From positions 806,001 through 870,000 of the forward strand of contig CP102611.1 in NCBI GenBank assembly GCA_041874755.1: a stretch of 64,000 nucleotides of DNA, written 5' to 3'. The first letter of the stretch is position 1, and each line of letters starts with the position of its first letter. This document shows, piece after piece, positions 11,921-30,282 of this stretch. The position numbers and the translations under genes are program-made. The DNA comes from Chitinibacter sp. SCUT-21 (GTDB lineage Bacteria; Pseudomonadota; Gammaproteobacteria; Burkholderiales; Chitinibacteraceae). Below the pieces are notes generated by a model. The model searched no databases. It saw nothing but the letters and a program-made list of their open reading frames with translations, and had not been told where the DNA came from.

Positions 11921-12136
11921 GACAGCACCTCTTCTGGCCTACCGTTTATCGAATAAGGCCGTGGATTTTACGCCCGTTCCGGCCTTTGTTTCAAACTTTA
12001 TTCGGCCAAATCAGCAAACACAACTGATTCCACCATTTTTGCCTAGCTAAGTCTTTGTTTTTGCGCTAAACCATAGTTGCACTGCAACAATCAGGCGCGA
12101 TTCAACCACATCTGCCGCGAAACAAGGAGCGCAAGA

Positions 12137-12925
12137 ATGAGTGATACGATCGATTGCCATATGGCACCCAACGGCGTCGTCACCCTCAGTTTAATGCGCC
12201 CAGAGGTCTGCAATGCCATTAATGAAATTATGGTGGCAGAACTGACTGCAACTTTGGTCGCCATTAGTCAAAACGCTGCTGCACGTGTGCTAGTGCTAAC
12301 GGGCTCAGGCAAGTTTTTTTGCTCCGGCACTGATCACCAATGGATGCTGAAAGGTAGCGAATCAGGTCCTGATCATAATTTTGAAGATGCTCTGCATATC
12401 GCGCGCTTATTACGCACACTCGATAGACTCCCAATTCCGACCATTGCGCATATTAATGGACCAGCCATTGGTACTGGCATCGGACTAATTTCTTGCTGCG
12501 ACATGGCGGTCTGCACCCCAAACAGCTGGTTTAGTATACCGGATACTCGATTAGGGCTCATCCCCGCAGTATTTGGCCCCTATGTTATTAATAAAATTGG
12601 CAGTAGCGCCGCCCGCCGGTTCTTTTTGAGTACCGAGAAATTCTCACCTACTACGGCGCAGAGACTTGGACTCATACATGAGTGCCCAATTGATGTAGAG
12701 CAGGTTAGTGAACAAGTGCGGTCATGGATTAGAGAAATTTTGCATAACAGCCCGCACGCACTCACGGCGGCGAAGCGCTTCATTACCTCAGTAGAGCATC
12801 GACCAATCGATGATGCCATGCTATCAGACACGGCACATCGCATGGCTCACATTCGCTCTCACGAGCAAGCACAAGAAGGTTTACGAGCCTATTTAAACCA
12901 AGCGCCAGTTAGCTGGGCCCCATAA
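12137..12925 (+). CDS. Enoyl-CoA hydratase/isomerase family protein
   Basis: About 262 residues of the crotonase fold, starting at the ATG at 12137 with AAGGAG upstream; an earlier in-frame ATG (12077) has no support. Oxyanion-hole segments are FFCSGTDHQWM and HINGPAIGTGIGL. The region IPDTRLGLIPAVFGPYVI and ARRFFLS resembles methylglutaconyl-CoA hydratases. At the place of the first catalytic glutamate of crotonase (rat Glu144) the sequence has aspartate (PDTRLG), and the second glutamate (Glu164) is replaced by arginine as in ARRYFL relatives. It may act on branched-chain or fatty acyl-CoA; the substrate is unassigned. Monocistronic, followed by a terminator. Confidence 0.85.
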   Translation: MSDTIDCHMAPNGVVTLSLMRPEVCNAINEIMVAELTATLVAISQNAAARVLVLTGSGKFFCSGTDHQWMLKGSESGPDHNFEDALHIARLLRTLDRLPIPTIAHINGPAIGTGIGLISCCDMAVCTPNSWFSIPDTRLGLIPAVFGPYVINKIGSSAARRFFLSTEKFSPTTAQRLGLIHECPIDVEQVSEQVRSWIREILHNSPHALTAAKRFITSVEHRPIDDAMLSDTAHRMAHIRSHEQAQEGLRAYLNQAPVSWAP

Positions 12926-12926
12926 A

Positions 12927-12955
12927 GAAAAACCCAGCACAAGGCTGGGTTTAGA
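12927..12955. terminator. Bidirectional terminator between hydratase gene and ppiD
   Basis: A 9-bp stem AAACCCAGC/GCTGGGTTT with a 5-base loop lies between the convergent stops of the hydratase gene (+) and ppiD (-). The T-run is stronger for the minus-strand transcript. Confidence 0.8.
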
Positions 12956-12975
12956 TAGGATTTACTGGAAGCCAA

Positions 12976-14814
12976 TTACTGCGCAGGTTTAGCTGCCATT
13001 TGCTTGCCGTATACCACTTTGATATCACGCTTTAGCGAATCTAGATAAGCAGATAGCTCAACTTGACCGTACATCTTAGACAAATTCTCATCGAGTTTGA
13101 ATTTGTTTTCAGGGCTTAATGCTGGCGCAGCAATCGCGTTGCCCACTTTATAAATTGTGTAGCCGCCTGCCACAGTAGCCCCGACATATGCTGGCTGTTT
13201 ACTGCCGTCCACTTTGAAAATAGCTTTTAAATCCGCCTCAGCAACACCAGGAGCGGCAATGCGGCCAATCGTTTGCATTTCACCCCAAGCCAGGTTTACA
13301 GCTTGACCGGCATTCAGTGCTTTTAGTTTTGCCGCACCATCAGCCGCAGCCAGTTTTACTGCCTTGTCTTGTTTGAGTTTTGCACTAATTTGCGCAGACA
13401 CTTCAGCTAAAGGCTGAGTTTGGCTTGGCTTAAACTCAAGAACACGCGCCGAAACCAATTGACCACGCCCAACTTCAACCGCTTCCGAATTGTGTTTTTT
13501 CTTCAGAACATCATCAGAGAAAACAGCCTCAAGCAATTTAGGATTATTCAGCACAGGATCTTGTGCTGATTTGCGTGTTACCCAATCACTTTGAACGATA
13601 GACAATTTCAACTCGTCAGCCACTGGCTTCAAACTATCAGCTTGCTGATAAACAAGATCGCTAAATTTTTCAGATTGTGACTGAAAACTAGTTTGCGCTT
13701 TTTCTAGTTTTAACTGCTCTTCAATTTTCGGTTTCACATCAGCGAAAGTCGCACCTTTCACGTCTTCGAGCTTCAAGATGTGAAAACCAAAGTCAGTCTC
13801 AACCACATCACTGATTTGCCCCTTGGTCATTTTAAAGGCAGCGTCTTCAAATGGTTTTACCATTGCGCCTTTGGCAAAGAACCCTAAATCACCACCATTC
13901 TCAGCAGAACCTGGATCTTGTGATTTGGCTTTCGCAAGTTCGGCAAATTGTGCTGGATTCTTTTTCACTTCCGCCAGAATCGCCTCAGCCTGCGCACGCA
14001 CTTTAGCTTTTTCTTCAGCCTTCATGTCTTTAGGCGCGTTAAGCAGAATATGGCTTACTTTGCGCTCTTCTTTGGTTAGATCGGCTTTGTGCTCTTCAAA
14101 GTATTTTTGAATATCCGCTTCTGCCACTTGTAATTTCGAAGCTAGCTCCTCCTGAGAGAACACCACGTATTCAAGCTTCACTTTGTCCGGCGATTTATAT
14201 TGCGCAAGATTGGTATCGTAATATTGCTTAATCTCAGCATCTGACACAGTCACTTGAGCCAGATATTGTTCAGGCGTTAAATTGGCAACGTAAACTTCAC
14301 GCTTTTCACCCATCAATTGGTTGAGACGTTGCATTTGAGCATTTGAGACAAAACCGGTTTGCATTACACCATCCATTAACTGGCGTAATACGAGATCTTG
14401 TTTGAGTTTTTCTTCAAAAATTGCAGGAGACATTTGTTGCGCGGCAAGCATTTCTTGGTAGCGCTTCGCATCAAATTTGCCATCAACTTGGAAAGCGGGA
14501 ATAGCCGCAATTGCATCACGCAACACTGAATCTGGCACCGCCAAATGCAATTGACGAGCTTTCTCTTGCAATAGCTGCTGGCGCACTAACTGCTCAACAA
14601 CCATAGGCTTCATTTCGTCTGGAATAGCTTGGTTACCAATCGCTTCGGCTAATTCACGCGGTGTGATACGTGACTTGCCGACCTTGGCCAGATAATCATC
14701 GCCCTGCCCCATCGCTTCGTAACCGCTAAAACCAATACCGACCACAAGGCCAACAGAAATCAGACCCAAAATTACTTGAACTGCTGTTTTATTATTGTGT
14801 ACAAAATCAAACAT
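12976..14814 (-). CDS. ppiD: Periplasmic peptidyl-prolyl isomerase/chaperone PpiD
   Basis: A 612-residue inner-membrane-anchored chaperone that helps proteins leaving the Sec translocon fold. One N-terminal transmembrane helix (VILGLISVGLVVGIGFSG, about 15-33) precedes a SurA-N-like chaperone region. A PpiC-type parvulin domain lies near residues 250-355, marked by KVSHILL, GGDLGFFAKGAMVKPFEDAAF and TDFGFHILKLED. A second C-terminal chaperone part follows. Length fits E. coli PpiD. It lies downstream of the tRNA-Asp gene in the same direction as tig-clpPX-lon-hupB, the common gammaproteobacterial and betaproteobacterial order. Confidence 0.95.
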   Translation of the reverse strand: MFDFVHNNKTAVQVILGLISVGLVVGIGFSGYEAMGQGDDYLAKVGKSRITPRELAEAIGNQAIPDEMKPMVVEQLVRQQLLQEKARQLHLAVPDSVLRDAIAAIPAFQVDGKFDAKRYQEMLAAQQMSPAIFEEKLKQDLVLRQLMDGVMQTGFVSNAQMQRLNQLMGEKREVYVANLTPEQYLAQVTVSDAEIKQYYDTNLAQYKSPDKVKLEYVVFSQEELASKLQVAEADIQKYFEEHKADLTKEERKVSHILLNAPKDMKAEEKAKVRAQAEAILAEVKKNPAQFAELAKAKSQDPGSAENGGDLGFFAKGAMVKPFEDAAFKMTKGQISDVVETDFGFHILKLEDVKGATFADVKPKIEEQLKLEKAQTSFQSQSEKFSDLVYQQADSLKPVADELKLSIVQSDWVTRKSAQDPVLNNPKLLEAVFSDDVLKKKHNSEAVEVGRGQLVSARVLEFKPSQTQPLAEVSAQISAKLKQDKAVKLAAADGAAKLKALNAGQAVNLAWGEMQTIGRIAAPGVAEADLKAIFKVDGSKQPAYVGATVAGGYTIYKVGNAIAAPALSPENKFKLDENLSKMYGQVELSAYLDSLKRDIKVVYGKQMAAKPAQ

Positions 14815-21521: not shown

Positions 21522-23105
21522 CTAGAATGACTCAAGTTGCAAGAGAAGCTCTGCGATATTGACTTCGTCGATTTGACTTTCATTCAAAAATCGCTGCGCA
21601 TAGTCAAACCAAACGCGCTCGGTTAAAAAAACCTTAAAGAGATCAAGATCAACGTGTCGCTCTCTCGCCATTCGGGTCAATATTTGCAAAGCCATTGAGA
21701 GTTTCATGCCGTCTTTATATGGACGATCACGCGCAGTGAGTGCCTCGAATACATCAGCGATACCCATAATCCTTGCTTGAACACTCATTTGCTCACGCTT
21801 AAGGCCACGAGGATAACCCTTCCCATCCATGCGCTCATGGTGTCCACCTGCATATTCGGGCACATTTTTTAAGTGCGATGGCCAAGGTAATGCCTCCAAC
21901 ATCTGGATTGTTACTTCTATATGCCGATTGATAATGGCCCTCTCCGCAGCAGTCAATGTACCTTTTCGGATGGTTAAATTTTCCAATTCATCTGAAGTCA
22001 AGAAGGCATGAGTCTGTCCCTCCGAATCCACCCAAACCATCTTAGCAATCGACTCTAGACGGGAAATTTGCGCATCGTCCATCGCCTCACTACCTTGATT
22101 AGCCTGGTGAATCAAAGCCCTATCTGCTCGTAACTGTTGCAATTGTTCCGCATACTGAGCTTCACCAAGCTGTCCACGTAGCATGGACAATTCCAGATCC
22201 CGAATTAATATTTCAAACCGTTGGTCAATCAATGTAACTCGATCGAAAATCGTTTGTAATTTCGTTGCTTTATCAACGACATGAACAGGCGTCGTTATTT
22301 TGCCGCAGTCATGCAATAGCCCCGCAATTTTTAATTCATAGCGGTCACGCTCGGTCATTTTAAAGTGCGCCAACTCCCCCAATTCACTGCGATTTGCCGC
22401 ATCAGCCAACATCATTGTCAATTCGGGAACTCGCTGGCAATGCCCACCGGTATAGGGAGATTTATCATCTATCGCCAAATTAATAAGATTAATAAAGCCC
22501 TCAAATAGTCTTTGCAGAGACAAAATCAACCGGCGATTAGTAATTGCAATTGCCGCCTGCGAGGCCAATGATTCGACTAAATGCTGGTCATTCAAAGTAA
22601 ATATTTCAATCTCATTTTGACGATTTAACGCATTGATGAGCTGCAACACCCCGATAATTTTCCCCTCATGATCTCGCATTGGCACAGCCAAAAATGATTT
22701 CGAGTGGTACCCAGAATGTTGATCAAAGCGACGTGTTCCCGAAAAATCATATTCGGCATTGGCATACGCATCGGGAATATTGATGGTCGATTGTTGATTG
22801 ACAGCACAAGCGACCACATTTGATAAGTTTGGCCGCCCATCTGCAAGTGCAAGCGGCACAGGAGGCAAACTCACCGAGCATCCGCTAGACCCCCCTTGCG
22901 CCAGACCTAAGCGGTTATTAAGTAGAATTTCAAAATGAAGTTTATTATCACGAACCAAATATAACGTACCAGCTTCGGCACGCACCAAATCAATCGCTGC
23001 GATCAAAATGCTTTCAACCAGCCGTTCGATCTTCGTCTCACCTGATAAAGCAACTCCAATTGCGTTTAGCTTATTTAGGCGCTGATGCAGCTCATGCTCG
23101 CTCAC
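21522..23105 (-). CDS. GAF and HD-GYP domain protein, putative c-di-GMP phosphodiesterase
   Basis: About 527 residues, GTG start (23105) with a G-run just upstream. An N-terminal GAF domain (about 10-185; AGTLYLVRDNKLHFEIL, FLAVPMRDHEGKIIGVLQLIN) is followed by an HD-GYP domain. The metal-binding LLHDCGKI is near 263-270 and the signature HHERMDGKGYPRGL near 422-435, both intact, so hydrolysis of c-di-GMP is plausible. About 105 residues, partly charged and helical (KLQTIFDRVTLIDQRFEILI region), are inserted between the HDCGK motif and the next conserved block (TLTAAERAIINRHI). Last gene of the six-gene kinase/ATPase operon, 15 bases after the ATPase gene. Confidence 0.9.
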   Translation of the reverse strand: MSEHELHQRLNKLNAIGVALSGETKIERLVESILIAAIDLVRAEAGTLYLVRDNKLHFEILLNNRLGLAQGGSSGCSVSLPPVPLALADGRPNLSNVVACAVNQQSTINIPDAYANAEYDFSGTRRFDQHSGYHSKSFLAVPMRDHEGKIIGVLQLINALNRQNEIEIFTLNDQHLVESLASQAAIAITNRRLILSLQRLFEGFINLINLAIDDKSPYTGGHCQRVPELTMMLADAANRSELGELAHFKMTERDRYELKIAGLLHDCGKITTPVHVVDKATKLQTIFDRVTLIDQRFEILIRDLELSMLRGQLGEAQYAEQLQQLRADRALIHQANQGSEAMDDAQISRLESIAKMVWVDSEGQTHAFLTSDELENLTIRKGTLTAAERAIINRHIEVTIQMLEALPWPSHLKNVPEYAGGHHERMDGKGYPRGLKREQMSVQARIMGIADVFEALTARDRPYKDGMKLSMALQILTRMARERHVDLDLFKVFLTERVWFDYAQRFLNESQIDEVNIAELLLQLESF

Positions 23106-23120
23106 AATACCCCCCAAGGG

Positions 23121-25457
23121 TTATTTAATGCAGACCTTTCTGATCTGAGGCATATCCGTTATACCCTGCAGTACTTTTTCTATGCCATCCTGCTTAAGTG
23201 TTCGCATTCCTTCATTTAAGGCACATGACAACAGGCTAGCAACACGAGCCCGCCCTTGAATTAATTGCTTCACAGCATCGGTGCCCACCATTAACTCATG
23301 CAAACCCACTCGCCCTTTATAGCCGGTATCTCCACATTTTTGACACCCTTTCGCGTGATACAGTTGATACTTGCCATTAACGGTAAAAGTGGCTTTCCAT
23401 TGCGCGGCTAGTTTTTCCCTCGCATCAACGGGGTCTAATTGCCATGCCTGAGTGGGGATGAGCTCTTGCACATACTCATCCAGTAATTGAGTCACTTCTT
23501 TTTCAGATGGTTCGTACGCAACTTTACAATGCTGGCATAAGCGTCTTGCCAATCGTTGCGCCAAAATCCCCAGTATTGCATCCGCAAAGTTAAAGGGATC
23601 CATCCCCATATCTAATAGACGAATCACTGATTCGGGCGCACTATTTGTGTGCAAAGTCGCCAACACCAAATGCCCTGTTAATGATGCTTCTATTCCTACA
23701 CTAGTCGTTTCAGCATCGCGCATTTCGCCCACCATAATGACGTCAGGATCAGCGCGCAAAAATGCCCTCATTACAGAGGCAAACGTTAACCCGGCTTTGG
23801 GGTTAATTTGCACTTGCCGCAACCCTACTTGAGTGATTTCAACAGGGTCTTCTGCGGTCCAAATTTTGGTTTCGGGAGTATTGAGATATTTTAAAACCGA
23901 ATGCAACGTGGTGGTTTTACCTGAACCAGTTGGCCCGCAAACAAAAAACAAACCATATGGTTTATCAATCACAGATTTTAGCTGTGTTAAATTGGCCTTG
24001 GACAGCGCCAATTTCTCCAAGGGTAACGGCTCTCCTGCCGCCAAAATACGCATCACGACATCTTCAAACCCGCCTGCCGTTGGAATAGTTGCGACTCGTA
24101 ATTCAATATCTAAATTGGGGACGTATTTTTTAAGCTTGATTTTTCCATCTTGTGGCTTTCTTCGCTCACTAATATCCAAATCACACATAATTTTGATTCG
24201 AGTGACAATTGGATTTCGATAGGCAGAAGGAACTTCACGATAGTGCATTAACTGCCCATCACGCCGAAACCTAATTTGCAACTTAGCAAGCCCAGGATAA
24301 GGCTCAATATGAATATCCGATGCGCCAAGCTGATGGGCATCAACAATGATTTGATTCACGAGCCGCACAACTTCATTATCTTGAGCGGCCGAGATCTCAT
24401 CTATGCTAGGGACTGTCTCATCTTCTGAGACACTCATATCCTCCAGCAGATTATCAATATTCCCTGTGCTTTCGATCCCAAAAAATTGCTCTAGCGTTTG
24501 CTGAAACTCTTTGCGCGTGGTTACCCGAACCAAAAACTTGCGACCACTAAATAATTGTGTAGCATGGGCTCGAATCCGCTCGGGATCCGTCGTTAACACC
24601 ACAATCCCTTCAGAGACTTCATCAAGCGGTAACCACTGCTGTTCGCGCAAAAAATCATGCTTTAGATTCTTTAACAACTCTAAAGGCTTAACTCGATCGT
24701 CCTTGAAAGGCTCATACGGTTGACCAAAAAAAGAACTGAGCGAAGCCCCTATCTGAGAAAAACTAATCCCAAATCCCTCTACTAAAACCAACTCAATATC
24801 TTGTTGCTTTTTTTGCGCTTCGCGCACAGCGACTTGCCAGGCAGCTGGCGAAATCGCGCCCGATAATACTAGCTGTTGGTATTTATGCTGGGGAACAAAT
24901 GGAAATGGCGCTGTTTTGCGCTGCTTGAATGCAACCGCCAAAGTTCTGGCAAGAAGTTTAATCCCCTCGAGCATGGGCTCGGAAAACGCATGAGCCATTC
25001 GGTTGTTGATGAGCTGGATGACCCCCAGCAAGACCCCATCAGACTCATTGAGAATGGGGGCCACCAACATTTCTCGTGTTTGAAAGCCTGTTTTTTGATC
25101 AACAATTTGCAAGAATTGCAAACTAGGAGAATAAGAATGTAGCTCAGCTTCATCATATACATTATGTATATTTAGCAATTGCTTATGATTTGCGACAAAA
25201 CCTGCAATACTGCGGTCATTGATTGGAATTCGTAACTCTTTAACTCCTTCCAGACCAGTTTTAACCTTGGCTAATAAATCCTTGCCGTCTTCACTCACCA
25301 CGTACAGCGTAATTCGTTCACAAGAGAACAAACTACACATTTGAGCACTAACCTCAATCAGGATTTCATCCAAATGCGTGGTGGCATGAATTTTCGTCGT
25401 AAGCCCCTGAAGGGACTGCATAAAATCAAGCGTTAACGCAGAAGGATGAGTGCTCAT
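23121..25457 (-). CDS. GAF-MshEN-PilB-like secretion ATPase
   Basis: A 778-residue protein. It has a GAF domain (about 1-180), an MshEN/GspE-N-type region (about 190-330; these modules bind c-di-GMP in some relatives), an acidic linker, and a GspE/PilB ATPase domain (about 360-770). The ATPase is complete: Walker [11 protein letters not shown] (508-517), the Asp box, Walker B region MVGEMRDAETT, the His box GHLVLATLHTN, and the tetracysteine pair (CQHC and CQKCGDTGYKGRVGLHE). PilB/GspE hexamers power type IV pilus extension or type II secretion, but no pilus or secretion gene is nearby. It lies two bases after the hydrolase gene. Its role is inferred to be signal-controlled, not classical pilus assembly. 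Confidence 0.92.
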   Translation of the reverse strand: MSTHPSALTLDFMQSLQGLTTKIHATTHLDEILIEVSAQMCSLFSCERITLYVVSEDGKDLLAKVKTGLEGVKELRIPINDRSIAGFVANHKQLLNIHNVYDEAELHSYSPSLQFLQIVDQKTGFQTREMLVAPILNESDGVLLGVIQLINNRMAHAFSEPMLEGIKLLARTLAVAFKQRKTAPFPFVPQHKYQQLVLSGAISPAAWQVAVREAQKKQQDIELVLVEGFGISFSQIGASLSSFFGQPYEPFKDDRVKPLELLKNLKHDFLREQQWLPLDEVSEGIVVLTTDPERIRAHATQLFSGRKFLVRVTTRKEFQQTLEQFFGIESTGNIDNLLEDMSVSEDETVPSIDEISAAQDNEVVRLVNQIIVDAHQLGASDIHIEPYPGLAKLQIRFRRDGQLMHYREVPSAYRNPIVTRIKIMCDLDISERRKPQDGKIKLKKYVPNLDIELRVATIPTAGGFEDVVMRILAAGEPLPLEKLALSKANLTQLKSVIDKPYGLFFVCGPTGSGKTTTLHSVLKYLNTPETKIWTAEDPVEITQVGLRQVQINPKAGLTFASVMRAFLRADPDVIMVGEMRDAETTSVGIEASLTGHLVLATLHTNSAPESVIRLLDMGMDPFNFADAILGILAQRLARRLCQHCKVAYEPSEKEVTQLLDEYVQELIPTQAWQLDPVDAREKLAAQWKATFTVNGKYQLYHAKGCQKCGDTGYKGRVGLHELMVGTDAVKQLIQGRARVASLLSCALNEGMRTLKQDGIEKVLQGITDMPQIRKVCIK

Positions 25458-25459
25458 AG

Positions 25460-26230
25460 CTAAAACTCAATAATTTCGCCTTGTAGTAACCGACGAATTG
25501 GGTGGTCATGGTCTAAAGCCAGCACCTCCTGGATGGTTAGCTCACTATCCGCAGGCTTTAGATGAGTAATCAATACTTCAGCGCCACCTTGCCAACCTCG
25601 GAGCTGTTCAGCCAAGGTACTCGGACAAAGATGCTTTGCAGCATCTGCCAGTTGGTGCTCTTTATCAGCAAAAGCAGTTTCGATGATCAACGCTTTCAGG
25701 TTTTTTACTTGATTTACAGCAAGCCAAAAATCGGGGCCAGCGATACTATCTCCACTAAAAACGATCGCGCCCTGTGAAGTCTCCATCAAAAATCCTACCG
25801 CAGGGACGGTGTGAATCGCCGGTAAGGGGGTGATTGTAACTTCGCCAATAACAGTCGCTTGACCAACTTCATGCTCGACAAAGACCAAACTCGGTTGATC
25901 TGCACTTGGAATAGTAGAAAAGTCTGGCCAGATTAGCCAATTGAAAATGTGTTGACGCAGTAAAGCAATCGTTTGTGCTGTGGCATGAACAAAAACAGGG
26001 CTTGAGCGCACCCCAACCACAGAATCAAGCAATAATGGCAAACACGCGATATGGTCAAGGTGCACATGAGTTAGAAAAACATGCTCTATCTCCTGCAATT
26101 CAGCCAATTGCAGATCACCAACGCCAGTTCCTGCGTCGATTAAAATGGTGTGGTTAAGCAGAAACGAGGTGGTTCGATTGTCTCCACCTATTCCGCCACT
26201 ACATCCGAGGACTCGTAGTTGACAGCTCAT
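25460..26230 (-). CDS. Metallo-beta-lactamase-fold hydrolase, cyclic-nucleotide phosphodiesterase-like
   Basis: A 256-residue MBL-fold protein with the metal site HVHLDH (H55, H57, D59, H60), further ligands in FSGDSIAG and LITHLKP, and the opening LGCSGGIGG...TTSFLL. The wide arrangement and the HLDH variant resemble class II 3',5'-cyclic-nucleotide phosphodiesterases and RNase Z relatives; which substrate it cleaves cannot be decided here. It lies 3 bases after the FHA gene and 2 before the ATPase gene, so it is firmly part of the operon and may remove a second messenger sensed by the GAF domains (inference). Confidence 0.82.
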   Translation of the reverse strand: MSCQLRVLGCSGGIGGDNRTTSFLLNHTILIDAGTGVGDLQLAELQEIEHVFLTHVHLDHIACLPLLLDSVVGVRSSPVFVHATAQTIALLRQHIFNWLIWPDFSTIPSADQPSLVFVEHEVGQATVIGEVTITPLPAIHTVPAVGFLMETSQGAIVFSGDSIAGPDFWLAVNQVKNLKALIIETAFADKEHQLADAAKHLCPSTLAEQLRGWQGGAEVLITHLKPADSELTIQEVLALDHDHPIRRLLQGEIIEF

Positions 26231-26233
26231 GTT

Positions 26234-26890
26234 TTACCTAAAGAAAAAAGCCATCCTAATTCCCATTACCTCAATGAGATCCTCTTCCTGCAATTGCTGA
26301 GGCTTGACCCCAACCTCACGCGAATTCACCAAAGGTCGACGCTCACCTTCTACATGCGTAATATAGTAATCATTGCCTTTCCTAGTAAACGCAACGACTT
26401 GTAGGCCCGTTTTTCCAAGCGAAGTGACATTCTTATTCAAAACCATTTCTCTTCCAGCGTTCGTACCAGTCAGAACGCGGATAACAGCTACAACCCCCCC
26501 CGTGGTTTGCGGGGCTGGCTCATTTTTGCTGGTGACGTTTGCAACTTGCGGAGCCGCCATGACCATCGTTTTTTCAAACTCTTCTTGTTTGGCTGCAACA
26601 GCGGGTTCACGCCAGAAAGTAATTTTGTACTTTCCAATGGTAATATCATCGCCACTTTTTAGTGGATGTCTGCTTAATTTTTCACCATTAAGCAACGTAC
26701 CATTGGTGCTTTGCATGTCTTCAATGAAGTAGATCTGCCCCACTACTTCAATCACGGCATGCAGACCAGAAACTGCGAGATTATCAATTTGAATATCGTT
26801 ATTGGGTCGACGACCGATAGTTGTCCTTGAACGAGTCAAACGGAACTCTTTCACAGGATTACCTTCTAAACTCAAGAATAATTTTGCCAT
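26234..26890 (-). CDS. FHA domain protein
   Basis: About 218 residues from the ATG at 26890 (MAKLFLSLEG). The first 100 residues are a canonical FHA domain with the phosphothreonine-binding residues GR (26-27), S41-GLH and TNG (62-64). A linker rich in A/E/T follows, then a second beta-rich, FHA-like module (about 130-218: VIRVLTGTNAGREMVLN, LIEVMGIRMAFF) lacking the binding residues. FHA domains bind phosphothreonine peptides, so the upstream kinase is the obvious partner. The longer frame from 26959 overlaps the phosphatase gene and is not needed. Confidence 0.9.
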   Translation of the reverse strand: MAKLFLSLEGNPVKEFRLTRSRTTIGRRPNNDIQIDNLAVSGLHAVIEVVGQIYFIEDMQSTNGTLLNGEKLSRHPLKSGDDITIGKYKITFWREPAVAAKQEEFEKTMVMAAPQVANVTSKNEPAPQTTGGVVAVIRVLTGTNAGREMVLNKNVTSLGKTGLQVVAFTRKGNDYYITHVEGERRPLVNSREVGVKPQQLQEEDLIEVMGIRMAFFFR

Positions 26891-26909
26891 TTCAGATGCG
26901 CCCACCGAA

Positions 26910-27746
26910 TTACGAACTACTACCAAACCAGCCTGCGACTTTATTCCATAGGCCAGCATCAGCTGAAAAATCGCGAAGAACTTTGACTAAAATCACCGAA
27001 ATATTGTCACGCCCACCTTCTGCATTTGCTTGCTCAACCAGCAGATCGCAGGCCTGCGACAAATTACCTTTGCTAATTTTCAGCAATTCGCATAGGGCTT
27101 CGTCCTGCAGCATATCGCTTAAGCCATCAGAGCAAAAGAGATACACGTCACCCACTTCAACTTGAAACTCATTGAGTTCCGTCTGCACCATCGAGCCTAT
27201 GCCAACCGCTCGTGTAACCAAATTTTTATAGGGTGCGTACCTTGCCTCTTCTTCTGTAATCAAACCGGCATCAATTTGTTCTTGCAAAAAAGAGTGGTCT
27301 TTCGTTAGCTGTTCTAAGTCATTGCCTCGCAGGCGATAGACGCGAGAGTCGCCAACATGTGCCAGCGCCACGCAGTTGTTATAAAACACGGCACTGATCA
27401 GCGTTGTTCCCATTCCAGCACACTGCTGATTAGCTTGTGCCGTTTGATAAATCATTAAATTGGCTCGATCTGTTGCTAAGAGCAACATCTCATGCGCCAC
27501 AGGCCACAGGCTTCCTGCTGTTTTAACATGTGCAGGGGTGGCCATCATTTGGGCTCGCATCACTTCGGCGGTGACATTAATCGCCATTCCGCTAGCCACC
27601 TCACCCGCGTTGTAACCCCCCATACCATCGGCAAGGATCACCAACCCCAAATCTGGGTCAAAGTGAATCGCATCTTCATTATGCTCACGCACCAATCCAG
27701 CATCAGTGCGACCTGCCATTTCAAGTGCGGCTGACAGGCTTCGCAT
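26910..27746 (-). CDS. PP2C-family Ser/Thr phosphatase
   Basis: A 278-residue bacterial PP2C. All metal-binding motifs are present: REHNEDA, LADGMGGYNAGEVAS, AHVGDSRVYRLRG, LFCSDGLSDML and GGRDNISVILV. It should dephosphorylate phosphoserine/phosphothreonine, reversing the kinase encoded just upstream. AAGGGAG lies 7 bases before the ATG. Its first 26 bases overlap the 3' end of the kinase gene, indicating coupled translation. Relatives are named Stp1, PrpC or PppA. Confidence 0.93.
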   Translation of the reverse strand: MRSLSAALEMAGRTDAGLVREHNEDAIHFDPDLGLVILADGMGGYNAGEVASGMAINVTAEVMRAQMMATPAHVKTAGSLWPVAHEMLLLATDRANLMIYQTAQANQQCAGMGTTLISAVFYNNCVALAHVGDSRVYRLRGNDLEQLTKDHSFLQEQIDAGLITEEEARYAPYKNLVTRAVGIGSMVQTELNEFQVEVGDVYLFCSDGLSDMLQDEALCELLKISKGNLSQACDLLVEQANAEGGRDNISVILVKVLRDFSADAGLWNKVAGWFGSSS

Positions 27747-30243
27747 TCGCCGCTCCCTTAATTGCTTCTTCTAATTTTAATAACACATTCGCCATTTGCG
27801 CCCCAGTTTGGAATCGCTGATCCGCCTTCTTTTCCAAGGCCTTCATAATAATCTTAATAACCACCGACGGTAATTTTGGATTGTAATTCCTTGGATCTGT
27901 TGGCGGTTGTTGTGTAATGCGATACATCAATTCCGCCATGGAATCTCCGACAAATGGTAAATATCCCGTTAGCATTTGATACAACATCACACCGAGAGAA
28001 AATAAATCAGAGCGCCCGTCAATATGCTTACCCGCTAATTGCTCAGGAGACATAAATGACGGAGTCCCCAAAACCATACCTGTTTTGGTTTTGGACGAGT
28101 CCGTTATTCGCGCAATACCAAAATCAGTCACCTTCACGGTTTTAGTTTTTTTGTCATACATCACATTGGCAGGCTTAATATCGCGGTGAACGACACCCGC
28201 CTGATGTGCGTAATCCAACGCCTGCGCAATTTGGCGGACGATTGTAATGACCTCCAAGACAGGGAGTAGATGACCAACCTTGGTATAAGGCGTTAAATCT
28301 TCACCAGCCAAAAACTCCATCGCAATATACGCAAGATCATGCTCTTCACCCGCGTCAAAAATCGTTACGATATTGGGGTGATTAAGGCGCCCCGCTGTTT
28401 CGGCCTCCCTAAAAAATCTTTCACGCGCTTCATCAATCACATCCTCATCAAATTCTTGCCCCAGAGACATCGTTTTAATGGCGACTTCGCGCGAAATTTT
28501 TGGGTCTTTACCAAGATAAACAATACCCATAGCACCTTTGCCCAGCTCTTTTTCAAGCTGATAGCGCCCCAGCATCGGCTTGGCTACTTCACCATCGAGC
28601 ATTATTTGTGTTCCACCCTGCTGGCCGCCCCCCAAAATTACCGTCTCGGCCATATGCTTAGCCGTCTTCATTTTTTCAGCCAAATCACGATATTTCGGGT
28701 CATGCGTATGAATTAGCCGGTACACCGACTCCGCCTTATTAAACTGGCGCTTGCGCTCAAAATCGAGGGCTAGGTTATACATGATTTCCATCATGCCTTC
28801 GTCCAGCGGCACTCGGCGCAATTTATCAAAGGCCATATCAAGTTGCCCCTGATTCTGAAATGCCAAGCCCAACATACGGTTAGATTCTGCCGACTCCGCA
28901 GCGGATTGCTGCCCTTTCTCTTCGGTGATCAAAAAACGTTTGGTTGTGAGCACCAAATGTCCAATCAAGAGCAAACTCGCCGGAGCCATTAATGGAATCC
29001 AAATCATCAGCCCACTCATTAATAGGTAATGAGTTCCCAAAATAAAAAGCAAAACCACAGCCGTTGTGGCTGCACCAGCCTTAGCTTTGAGTCGCGGCAA
29101 GACGAACAAAATATAGATGGCAATTGCGGCCAATAAAATATAAATCACCACATTAGACCAAGCAGGCGTGCGGTAATAATGCTGCTCAAGAAGAGCCGAG
29201 ATCGTATTGGCCGCGACTTCCAAAGGTGCAGCATTTGCTACCACCGGGGTATTGAAACTATCGCCAATTCCAGGCGCGGTGGTTCCAATCAGCACAATCT
29301 GCCCAGCGTATTTGCGACTGGGAATTTTTCCAGCAAAAACATCATAGAAAGAATCTACCGAAAAGGCTGGTCGGCCATTGTGTTCGGAATAGAAGTGCGG
29401 TTGAAATTGGCTACTGGGATCTGTTTCAATTGTTAGCGCACCTAAATGAATCACGCGCCCAAAATCCAACTGCATCTGCTTAACATTCAAAGCCTTGGCG
29501 ACCGCATGGGTATAAAAAGTGGGGAACACGGCATCGTAATACAGCAAACCCAGTGGCACAGAACGCAAAACGCCATCTTCATCCGCTTCTAAATTTTGGG
29601 CACCTACGGCACGCGCAGCAGCTCCAATTTGCGCCACTGGCAGTACAGGATCAATCACGCTGCGCGGCTGGCCTTTGCTAATATCCCCCGCCGCTTCAAT
29701 TTCGGTTTTGGCAAAAAAATCCGGCAAAGGCTGACTTGGATCCCCCGCCTGAGCCCCAAAATTAAACATCATCGGCAAAATCACGTTATCCGCAGCTTTA
29801 ATGCTATCAGCCAATCTTCGATCTACCTGAAGCGCACCCACGCCATTGTTCACTATTTGAACGAGGGCTTCAGGATAGGCTGCGGGGTCTTCATCGATAC
29901 GACGTTGGATTTGCTCAAGATAATCCAAGCCACGGTCGCGCTGTGGCTCAGTAAAGAAAATGGTTGAAACAATTTGTGCAGCCCCGCCTTCTTTGAGCTT
30001 ATCGATCATTTGGGCGTGAATGTCGCGGGACCACGGCCAGCGCCCCAAATTATCAAGGCTAACTTGATCAATACCGATGACGGCAATTTTCGGAGAAGGG
30101 CTACGCTCAATCCACTCCATCGTCCAATCATAGGCCTTGCTGTCGAGCGCGCGAATTAGTGGAGTACTTAACCACAGCAAAATAAAGAGCAATACGACTA
30201 TTGACCCAATTGCCCAATCATTGCGCCAGATTTGCCGCTTCAT
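27721..30243 (-). CDS. CHASE2-domain transmembrane Ser/Thr protein kinase
   Basis: About 840 residues. One N-terminal transmembrane helix (15-31), then an extracytoplasmic CHASE2 sensor (about 35-365; IAVIGIDQVSLDNLGRWPW, GRWPWSR, GQIVLIGTTAPGIGD). Three more helices follow (about 365-435), then two TPR-like helical repeats (about 455-530) and a C-terminal Hanks-type kinase (about 560-815). Kinase motifs are complete: GKGAMG loop (569-574), VAIK with Lys591, HRDIKPAN with Asp689, DFGIAR and GTPSFMSPEQ. It should sense an external signal and phosphorylate cytoplasmic targets. AGGA is better spaced for the second ATG (30243) than for 30246. It heads the six-gene operon and overlaps the phosphatase gene. 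Confidence 0.94.
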   Translation of the reverse strand: MKRQIWRNDWAIGSIVVLLFILLWLSTPLIRALDSKAYDWTMEWIERSPSPKIAVIGIDQVSLDNLGRWPWSRDIHAQMIDKLKEGGAAQIVSTIFFTEPQRDRGLDYLEQIQRRIDEDPAAYPEALVQIVNNGVGALQVDRRLADSIKAADNVILPMMFNFGAQAGDPSQPLPDFFAKTEIEAAGDISKGQPRSVIDPVLPVAQIGAAARAVGAQNLEADEDGVLRSVPLGLLYYDAVFPTFYTHAVAKALNVKQMQLDFGRVIHLGALTIETDPSSQFQPHFYSEHNGRPAFSVDSFYDVFAGKIPSRKYAGQIVLIGTTAPGIGDSFNTPVVANAAPLEVAANTISALLEQHYYRTPAWSNVVIYILLAAIAIYILFVLPRLKAKAGAATTAVVLLFILGTHYLLMSGLMIWIPLMAPASLLLIGHLVLTTKRFLITEEKGQQSAAESAESNRMLGLAFQNQGQLDMAFDKLRRVPLDEGMMEIMYNLALDFERKRQFNKAESVYRLIHTHDPKYRDLAEKMKTAKHMAETVILGGGQQGGTQIMLDGEVAKPMLGRYQLEKELGKGAMGIVYLGKDPKISREVAIKTMSLGQEFDEDVIDEARERFFREAETAGRLNHPNIVTIFDAGEEHDLAYIAMEFLAGEDLTPYTKVGHLLPVLEVITIVRQIAQALDYAHQAGVVHRDIKPANVMYDKKTKTVKVTDFGIARITDSSKTKTGMVLGTPSFMSPEQLAGKHIDGRSDLFSLGVMLYQMLTGYLPFVGDSMAELMYRITQQPPTDPRNYNPKLPSVVIKIIMKALEKKADQRFQTGAQMANVLLKLEEAIKGAANAKPVSRT

Positions 30244-30282
30244 CATCTCATCCTTGGGTCTGGTATTAACTTCATCGTATCA

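Follow-up and report, generated by a model that had tools for sequence, protein, structure and literature searches.

A conserved signaling cassette around a GAF-bearing PilB/GspE-type ATPase in Chitinibacter sp. SCUT-21 and its possible link to type IV pili

What is controlled by a run of genes that places a Ser/Thr kinase, a PP2C phosphatase, an FHA protein, a metallo-beta-lactamase (MBL), a GAF-bearing PilB/GspE-type ATPase and an HD-GYP protein side by side? This question is raised by a locus of Chitinibacter sp. SCUT-21, which we analyzed in a 64-kb stretch of DNA (the window) at positions 806001-870000 of the 3.45 Mb single-contig genome. In the list of open reading frames (ORFs), the six genes of this cassette all lie on the minus strand in the 21522..30243 region, with gaps or overlaps of -26, 19, 3, 2 and 15 bases when starts are read from the sequence (ATG at 26890 for the FHA gene, GTG at 23105 for the HD-GYP gene). 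Both the strand and the spacing had been reported in a first-pass annotation of the window, which also named catalytic residues in the kinase, PP2C, MBL, ATPase and HD-GYP proteins; the ORF and start check bore out the former, and all of the latter are found in the window proteins. Pfam assigns to the six products, in each case above cut-off, CHASE2 and Pkinase; PP2C; FHA; Lactamase_B_2/PDEase_II; GAF, MshEN and T2SSE; and GAF and HD_5. Our best explanation, with a probability of about one half, is that the cassette tunes type IV pilus assembly by means of a cyclic AMP (cAMP)-gated accessory pilus motor and a phosphothreonine layer. The genes are, from the kinase onwards:

27721..30246, minus strand: kinase (KIN), 841 amino acids (aa), with CHASE2 at residues 18-376, a TPR-like linker (by eye) and a Ser/Thr kinase domain at residues 562-813 (Pfam)
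26910..27746, minus strand: PP2C, Stp1-type Ser/Thr phosphatase, 278 aa (NCBIfam NF033484, 243 bits, cut-off 230)
26234..26890, minus strand: FHA protein, an FHA domain followed by a variable linker with EKTMVM (Pfam FHA, 81 bits)
25460..26230, minus strand: MBL, class II cyclic-nucleotide phosphodiesterase-like metallo-beta-lactamase, 256 aa (Pfam, PDB match, motif)
23121..25457, minus strand: ATPase with GAF, MshEN and PilB/GspE-type T2SSE, 778 aa (Pfam, NCBIfam)
21522..23105, minus strand: GAF-HD-GYP protein, cyclic di-GMP (c-di-GMP) phosphodiesterase-like (motifs)

Recurrence and full form of the cassette

The idea of a cassette was open to refutation by homologues that never cluster elsewhere. 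A neighborhood search found clustering instead, with the same genes recurring in order and strand across the taxonomic order, which places the arrangement far beyond chance. Among 41 genomes (the own genome and 40 relatives), 24 encode a full-length ATPase orthologue (at least 58% identity); the ATPase matches that rank below these are incomplete and generic. All 23 loci of the relatives have MBL upstream of the ATPase (23/23); PP2C and FHA are also present in 21 of them, the kinase in 19, HD-GYP in 18, a cyclase in 11 and a cyclic-nucleotide-binding (cNMP) gene in 3. An order-wide survey of 220 genomes, whose counts and Fisher's test ignore kinship, detects the ATPase in 96 genomes and MBL in 134. 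This ATPase tally comprises full-length orthologues and three contig-end fragments (G164, G177, G143); 15 weaker rows of second copies or paralogues were left out, which removes G060, G080, G137 and G235 from a tally of 100. MBL and ATPase co-occur in 88 of the 220 genomes (odds ratio 18.7, p = 1e-17), and in 82 of these 88 they are found within 8 kb of each other, all 82 on the same strand with MBL upstream. A close relative of the cyclase (E <= 1e-120) is present in 92 genomes, compared with 22 for the cNMP-binding-rhodanese gene (E <= 1e-30). Where MBL and the close cyclase relative are both present, they lie within 8 kb in 67 of 85 genomes, 66 of which have them within 3 kb and on the same strand. 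ATPase matches at E <= 1e-190 occur in 2 of 369 genomes of the class and 6 of 398 genomes of the phylum, every one from the same order.

A larger form of the cassette is visible in loci collected with the MBL profile. These loci (L068-L147, of which L068 is the same record as L046) rank as the best 80 among 585 confirmed matches to MBL, and counts on them are conditional on MBL. They include Gallionella, Sideroxydans, Azonexus, Azospira, Iodobacter, Andreprevotia, Deefgea, Accumulibacter and other betaproteobacteria, and their commonest gene order is kinase, PP2C, FHA, CHASE2-adenylate cyclase, MBL, cNMP-binding-rhodanese, ATPase and HD-GYP. Pfam identifies CHASE2 with Guanylate_cyc and cNMP_binding with Rhodanese in three examples of each of the two extra genes, and the phosphate-binding pattern of the cNMP-binding protein is kept in 41 of 42. 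Of the 74 loci (window included) whose flanks are long enough, 26 carry all eight genes, 18 lack the cNMP gene only, 10 have the six genes of the window and 20 other subsets. The window copy, which has neither cyclase nor cNMP gene, is a smaller form of this larger cassette, invisible from the window sequence alone. Most simply, it would have arisen by loss: at locus L053, collinear cyclase fragments persist in the FHA-MBL gap (the best at 56% over 62 aa, 2e-16), and such remnants support reduction from the larger cassette. With cyclase and cNMP reader absent from the window cassette, cAMP would need cyclases encoded elsewhere. The own genome has three class III cyclase genes (PF00211) outside the cassette, two of which resemble the cassette cyclase (36% and 30% over most of the length). 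Neither the cassette nor a cAMP-binding PilB is described among the literature matches listed (titles and abstract openings, with subscription papers mostly outside); the parts appear to be of known kinds and the combination, as well as a cAMP-type GAF domain on a pilus-type motor, appears to be new.

Pilin genes downstream of the cassette

The first-pass annotation had suggested control of a secretion machine by the kinase-phosphatase-FHA trio, as in type VI secretion. In 29 of 86 ATPase loci (104 loci scanned), a pilin gene (GFTLIELM...) lies within 5 kb downstream, on the same strand in 27 of the 29, and no pilin gene was found within 5 kb upstream in any of the 86. By this motif, we take the downstream genes to encode major pilins. 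Their density amounts to 33 genes per 336 kb downstream versus 3 per 1,451 kb elsewhere in the loci, a 47-fold enrichment without correction for kinship or genome size, and the first pilin starts at most 622 bp after the last cassette gene in 22 of the 29 loci. Since a gene of the major-pilin type follows the cassette in these loci, a type IV pilus is a likelier candidate for the machine than a type VI-like secretion system; no type VI genes were recognized by eye among the 11 recurrent neighbor families, and no search aimed at type VI genes was run. A strong PilM match (E <= 1e-30) is present in 94 of the 96 ATPase genomes versus 76 of the 124 others, a comparison that ignores kinship and genome size; the two ATPase genomes without one are drafts of 470 and 160 contigs. 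At one locus (L058:12436-15258), genes for a large TPR-matching protein and, judged by eye, a glycosyltransferase-like one come after the pilin gene; they may serve to glycosylate the pilin.

Several observations nonetheless weigh against a cassette devoted to pili. The scan found a pilin gene neither near the window copy nor in those loci of its family that it covered, and 57 of the 86 ATPase loci, some with a short flank, show none within 5 kb. PilM_2 also matches 9 of 14 control genomes, which makes it a loose marker. The ATPase itself is missing from 46 of the 134 MBL genomes: two congeners (G002, G005) have kinase, PP2C, FHA, MBL and HD-GYP without an intervening ATPase, with around 155 bases separating MBL from HD-GYP, G009 has the same five genes plus a cyclase and again no ATPase, and other relatives retain just PP2C-FHA-MBL, which stand alone in 4 of the 74 loci. 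A pilin gene accompanies 1 of 11 MBL loci without ATPase and 26 of 70 with it, a difference that is not significant (p = 0.09). As the trio and HD-GYP outlive the ATPase, the latter would be a frequent but not the sole output, or the module may be re-usable. The ATPase had been put forward as the machine under control; it is of PilB/GspE type, but as the only target of the kinase trio it does not hold, given the MBL genomes that lack it and the congeners in which the trio persists without it.

The ATPase-free genomes, the two congeners and the solitary PP2C-FHA-MBL loci would all fit a general regulatory hub (e.g., for metabolism or the envelope) with many targets, in which ATPase and pilin are frequent passengers. 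Such a hub is the best of the competing explanations, yet we consider it unlikely, as the 47-fold enrichment of pilins after the cassette, the near confinement of the ATPase to genomes with a strong PilM match and the MBL-ATPase linkage in 82 of 88 genomes speak against it.

Cyclic nucleotides and the ATPase

Two likely second-messenger hydrolases had been proposed from the window. This is supported, and for MBL it can be sharpened: it is likely a class II cAMP phosphodiesterase, since an adenylate cyclase and a cNMP-binding protein share the cassette in relatives. MBL scores 41.4 bits against PDEase_II (PF02112; cut-off 23.7), and its nearest named protein relatives are from Chitinibacter. 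The NCBIfam model of cyclic-nucleotide-degrading phosphodiesterases (NF041851), which we presume to stand for Rv1339, matches over nearly the full length at 47.8 bits, below its cut-off of 400. Among solved structures, the MBL profile matches yeast PDE1 best (2.6e-12), before 6kns (YhfI) and RNase Z, and MBL and PDE1 have in common the blocks HxHLDH, HxFN..IWPD, HLSP and THxK. The window motif reads THVHLDH; [TS]HxHxDH, the signature of atypical class II enzymes in an excerpt of PMC9293780, is present in all 104 MBL orthologues (104/104), and HxHLDH in the window and 97 of the 104. It is improbable that MBL is instead an RNase Z-type nuclease or another hydrolase: the NCBIfam RNase Z model does match, some sources label MBL ribonuclease BN and the window cassette has no cyclase, but the 57.6-76 bits of these matches are far below the cut-off.

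The ATPase is a putative type IV pilus extension motor, going by its Walker motifs and the pilus machine encoded in the genome, which has PilB, PilC-type and PilM matches. Walker A is kept in 77 and Walker B in 78 of 79 orthologues (motif counts use complete proteins only, i.e., 79 of the 86 ATPase loci). Model scores are 490 bits for PilB (TIGR02538), 463 for GspE and 393 for TfpB (NF053534), all below the equivalog cut-offs; the ATPase is therefore no canonical PilB (490 versus 675.65 bits, with the own genome's PilB, L001, at 835), and at 393 versus 850 bits it is not filed as TfpB. The cassette ATPases form one clade with a support of 100/99 in a 21-row tree and 99/97 in a 17-row tree. In the former, this clade is placed next to the PilB of the own genome (support 91/90), under a long-branch warning. 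The latter, from which the four longest rows were removed, groups it with neither PilB nor GspE, and in pairwise comparison within the own genome GspE (286.8 bits) ranks before PilB (268.7); these two results weaken the pilus assignment. The ATPase thus seems to be a clade of its own within the PilB/GspE family, and its place beside PilB is not firm. The separate clade and the GspE match would suit an ATPase that drives a type II-like secretion or pseudopilus machine; we consider this quite improbable, as the PilB model outscores the GspE model and the downstream genes are of the major-pilin type in 29 of the 86 loci.

The own genome has five PF00482 genes and encodes seven ATPases with lengths of around 500-780 aa. 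A PF00482 gene adjoins four of these ATPases but not that of the cassette, which would therefore depend on a platform from another locus. Another own-genome ATPase without a PilC-type neighbor has 708 aa, with MshEN, T2SSE and a C-terminal extension (G000:C1:968278-970404, L066:2279-4405), and adjoins a pilin-like gene (L066:4860-5666). A sister of the cassette ATPase with 802 aa (L067:5027-7435, G026:C70) is extended at the N-terminus, where Pfam detects no GAF domain.

The HD-GYP protein carries HDCGK and HHERMDGKGYP in the window, in line with the active type (HD, HHExxDGxGYP). Among its orthologues, HD..K is kept in 71 of 71 and HHERxDGxGYP in 69 of 71. In one genus, the HD-GYP slot is taken by a gene for a GGDEF protein (L052:11663-13000 and L053 from 11782, the two proteins being 67% alike to each other over 421 aa), which puts a c-di-GMP maker where an eraser would be.

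Two parts of the ATPase come into question for ligand binding:

24930..25373, minus strand: GAF domain of the ATPase, CyaB2-type, residues 29-176 (best solved match, contact positions)
24471..24725, minus strand: MshEN match of the ATPase, residues 245-329 (Pfam)

For the GAF domain, cAMP is the best candidate ligand, on the strength of the match to CyaB2, the kept contact positions and a control with the HD-GYP protein. The best solved match is the CyaB2 tandem GAF (1ykd; 4.6e-36, in two stretches), followed by PDE10A, an HD-GYP protein and PDE2A. The cAMP contacts of CyaB2 given in an excerpt of PMC4411481 (Arg291, Thr293, Ile308, Asp356, Asn359) align with R48, T50, V65, D120 and T123 of the ATPase. 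At these positions, the 79 orthologues have R in 79, T in 78, V/I/L in 78, D in 79 and T in 79. The cassette HD-GYP's own GAF domain, used as control, has the contact Arg in 0 of 71; its best solved match is PDE5, with CyaB2 at 3e-17. Other observations count against cAMP. The contact Arg is common in GAF domains and hence not diagnostic, the fifth contact is Thr where GAFb of CyaB2 has Asn (GAFa has Thr), and the HD-GYP GAF matches phosphodiesterase and cyclase GAFs too. NKFDE is conserved only in part (N, F and one Glu remain, while K and D are shifted or absent), and the GYRT stretch is changed in the window and most loci of its family, cyclase-keeping members included. Neither change serves as a mark of cyclase loss. 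NKFDE erosion was rejected as such, the motif being imperfect in genomes with and without cyclase. For GYRT, RT is kept/changed in 46/9 rows with cyclase and 9/10 without (p = 0.005; 74 of 79 rows, as 5 gave no match); it was not relied on because cyclase-bearing members lost RT too and it is not a listed contact. An MshE-like switch, in which the ATPase reads c-di-GMP via MshEN and HD-GYP is the local eraser, would suit the MshEN match, the adjoining HD-GYP gene and the genus with GGDEF in its slot, but is very unlikely, as the c-di-GMP motif RLGxx(L/V/I)2xxG(L/V/I)2xxxxLxxxLxxQ, strict or relaxed, is found nowhere in the protein in any of the 79 orthologues (0/79), which led us to reject a canonical MshEN read-out, and as Xcc GspE lost binding through key-residue changes (motif and GspE from excerpts of PMC5013675).

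Phosphothreonine layer, mechanism and known systems

The writer, eraser and reader of phosphothreonine that had been recognized in the window all have intact motifs, which most orthologues of kinase, PP2C and FHA protein keep. The kinase has Lys591 and HRD Asp689, and its 63 orthologues retain VAIK in 63, HRD in 62 and DFG in 63; PP2C has ADGMGG, CSDGL and DNISV. The FHA protein is not of the TagH type (49.6 bits on the TagH model versus a cut-off of 120.25). A phosphosite scan of the eight families for columns T-[MVILQ]-[IVLM]-[LMI] kept in more than 35% of the rows yielded three: SETVIL of the kinase (60/63), EKTMVL of the FHA protein (51/64) and one in the HD-GYP protein (70/71). The last, close to the HD domain, is taken to be structural. 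The other two are conserved islands within variable stretches:

28642..28644, minus strand: Thr535 of KIN, candidate autophosphorylation and FHA docking site (conservation in the variable linker)
26567..26569, minus strand: Thr of EKTMVM in the FHA linker, candidate KIN target (conserved column)

Thr535 lies in AETVIL in the window and SETVIL in most relatives, and its column has Thr in 97% and Leu at +3 in 100% of 63 rows. The FHA linker Thr (residue 108 when counted from the start at 26890, or 131 from that at 26959) is present in 91% of 64 rows, with EKTMVL as the commonest form among relatives. The common consensus suggests a candidate phosphothreonine code shared between kinase and FHA domain, one that the kinase would write and the FHA domain read. 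In one congener (L172, G005:C1:206001-226000, at around 12003-14527), the match to the kinase is split between two frames, with the junction near residue 782, owing to a frameshift or sequencing error. In L048, L049 and L050, the kinase ORF is short (346-507 aa) and the match starts after the CHASE2 region; the sensor half is apparently lost.

Taken together as control of pilus assembly, the families point to the following mechanism. The cyclase would write and MBL erase cAMP, which the cNMP-binding protein and the ATPase GAF domain would read. The ATPase may be an accessory pilus extension motor, TfpB-like beside PilB and dependent on the pilus machine encoded elsewhere, with cAMP switching it through the GAF domain. 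The kinase would sense the periplasm via CHASE2, autophosphorylate the SETVIL threonine and phosphorylate the FHA protein at EKTMVL; the FHA domain may bind such phosphothreonines in cis (GarA/OdhI-like) or in trans, thereby coupling the phospho-state to partners, and PP2C would reset it. HD-GYP would presumably lower c-di-GMP locally. The stricter version, in which cAMP made by the cassette and destroyed by MBL acts directly on the ATPase GAF and in which kinase, phosphatase and FHA protein gate the same motor, is less likely than not.

If the proposal is right, a single dedicated extension ATPase would be the meeting point of phosphothreonine, cAMP and c-di-GMP in a sizeable fraction of betaproteobacteria, and a cAMP-type GAF sensor on a motor, beside cAMP makers and breakers, would be a new way of gating pilus extension. 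Control of type IV pili by cAMP has been described via transcription (PMC11656802) and direct nucleotide control of such a motor for c-di-GMP (PMC5013675), as far as the excerpts of both papers go. The proposal would also assign a function to an ATPase encoded by 96 of the 220 genomes surveyed in the order, and it names residues at which it can be tested: in the ATPase R48, T50 and D120, in the kinase T535 and in the FHA protein the threonine of EKTMVM.

Upstream of the cassette, on the same strand, lie two genes that we take to be mtgA and aroE from their translations, and downstream what are presumably tig, clpP and clpX. A simple scan of the 81-base mtgA-kinase gap revealed no terminator-like site, so the transcript may extend beyond the six cassette genes. 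In relatives, genes that we would call TerC-like, universal-stress-like and sucCD-like recur around 7-9 kb upstream of MBL, in 15-19 loci each (e.g., L073, L075, L144, L145).

The cassette resembles several known systems in part. Type VI PpkA-PppA-Fha and GarA/OdhI have in common with it a kinase, PP2C and FHA protein side by side and a threonine outside the FHA domain; the cassette FHA protein is far below the OdhI and TagH cut-offs (200 and 120) in the model matches seen. With TfpB, the accessory type IV pilus extension motor of Acinetobacter baylyi (excerpts of PMC8213720 and PMC11656802), the ATPase shares the position of a second PilB-type ATPase away from pilC with PilB also present, but it carries a GAF domain and sits inside a signaling cassette. 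The MshE/MshEN pilus ATPases (excerpt of PMC5013675) likewise have MshEN before the ATPase and suggest a nucleotide-gated motor, whereas the cassette ATPase lacks the c-di-GMP motif and has cAMP on GAF as its candidate. The tandem GAF of CyaB2 (1ykd; excerpt of PMC4411481) is alike in GAF sequence and most cAMP-contact positions; here, a single GAF domain instead of two is borne by a motor ATPase and not by a cyclase. MBL has the fold family, the [T/S]HXHXDH/HXHLDH motifs and the PF12706 and PF02112 matches of the Rv1339-type atypical and PDE1-type typical class II phosphodiesterases (excerpt of PMC9293780), but differs in its low score on the NCBIfam cyclic-nucleotide-degrading model. Finally, cAMP also controls type IV pili in the Pil-Chp/CyaB/Vfr system of Pseudomonas aeruginosa; there, according to an excerpt of PMC11656802, it acts on transcription by Vfr, whereas here it may act directly on the motor.

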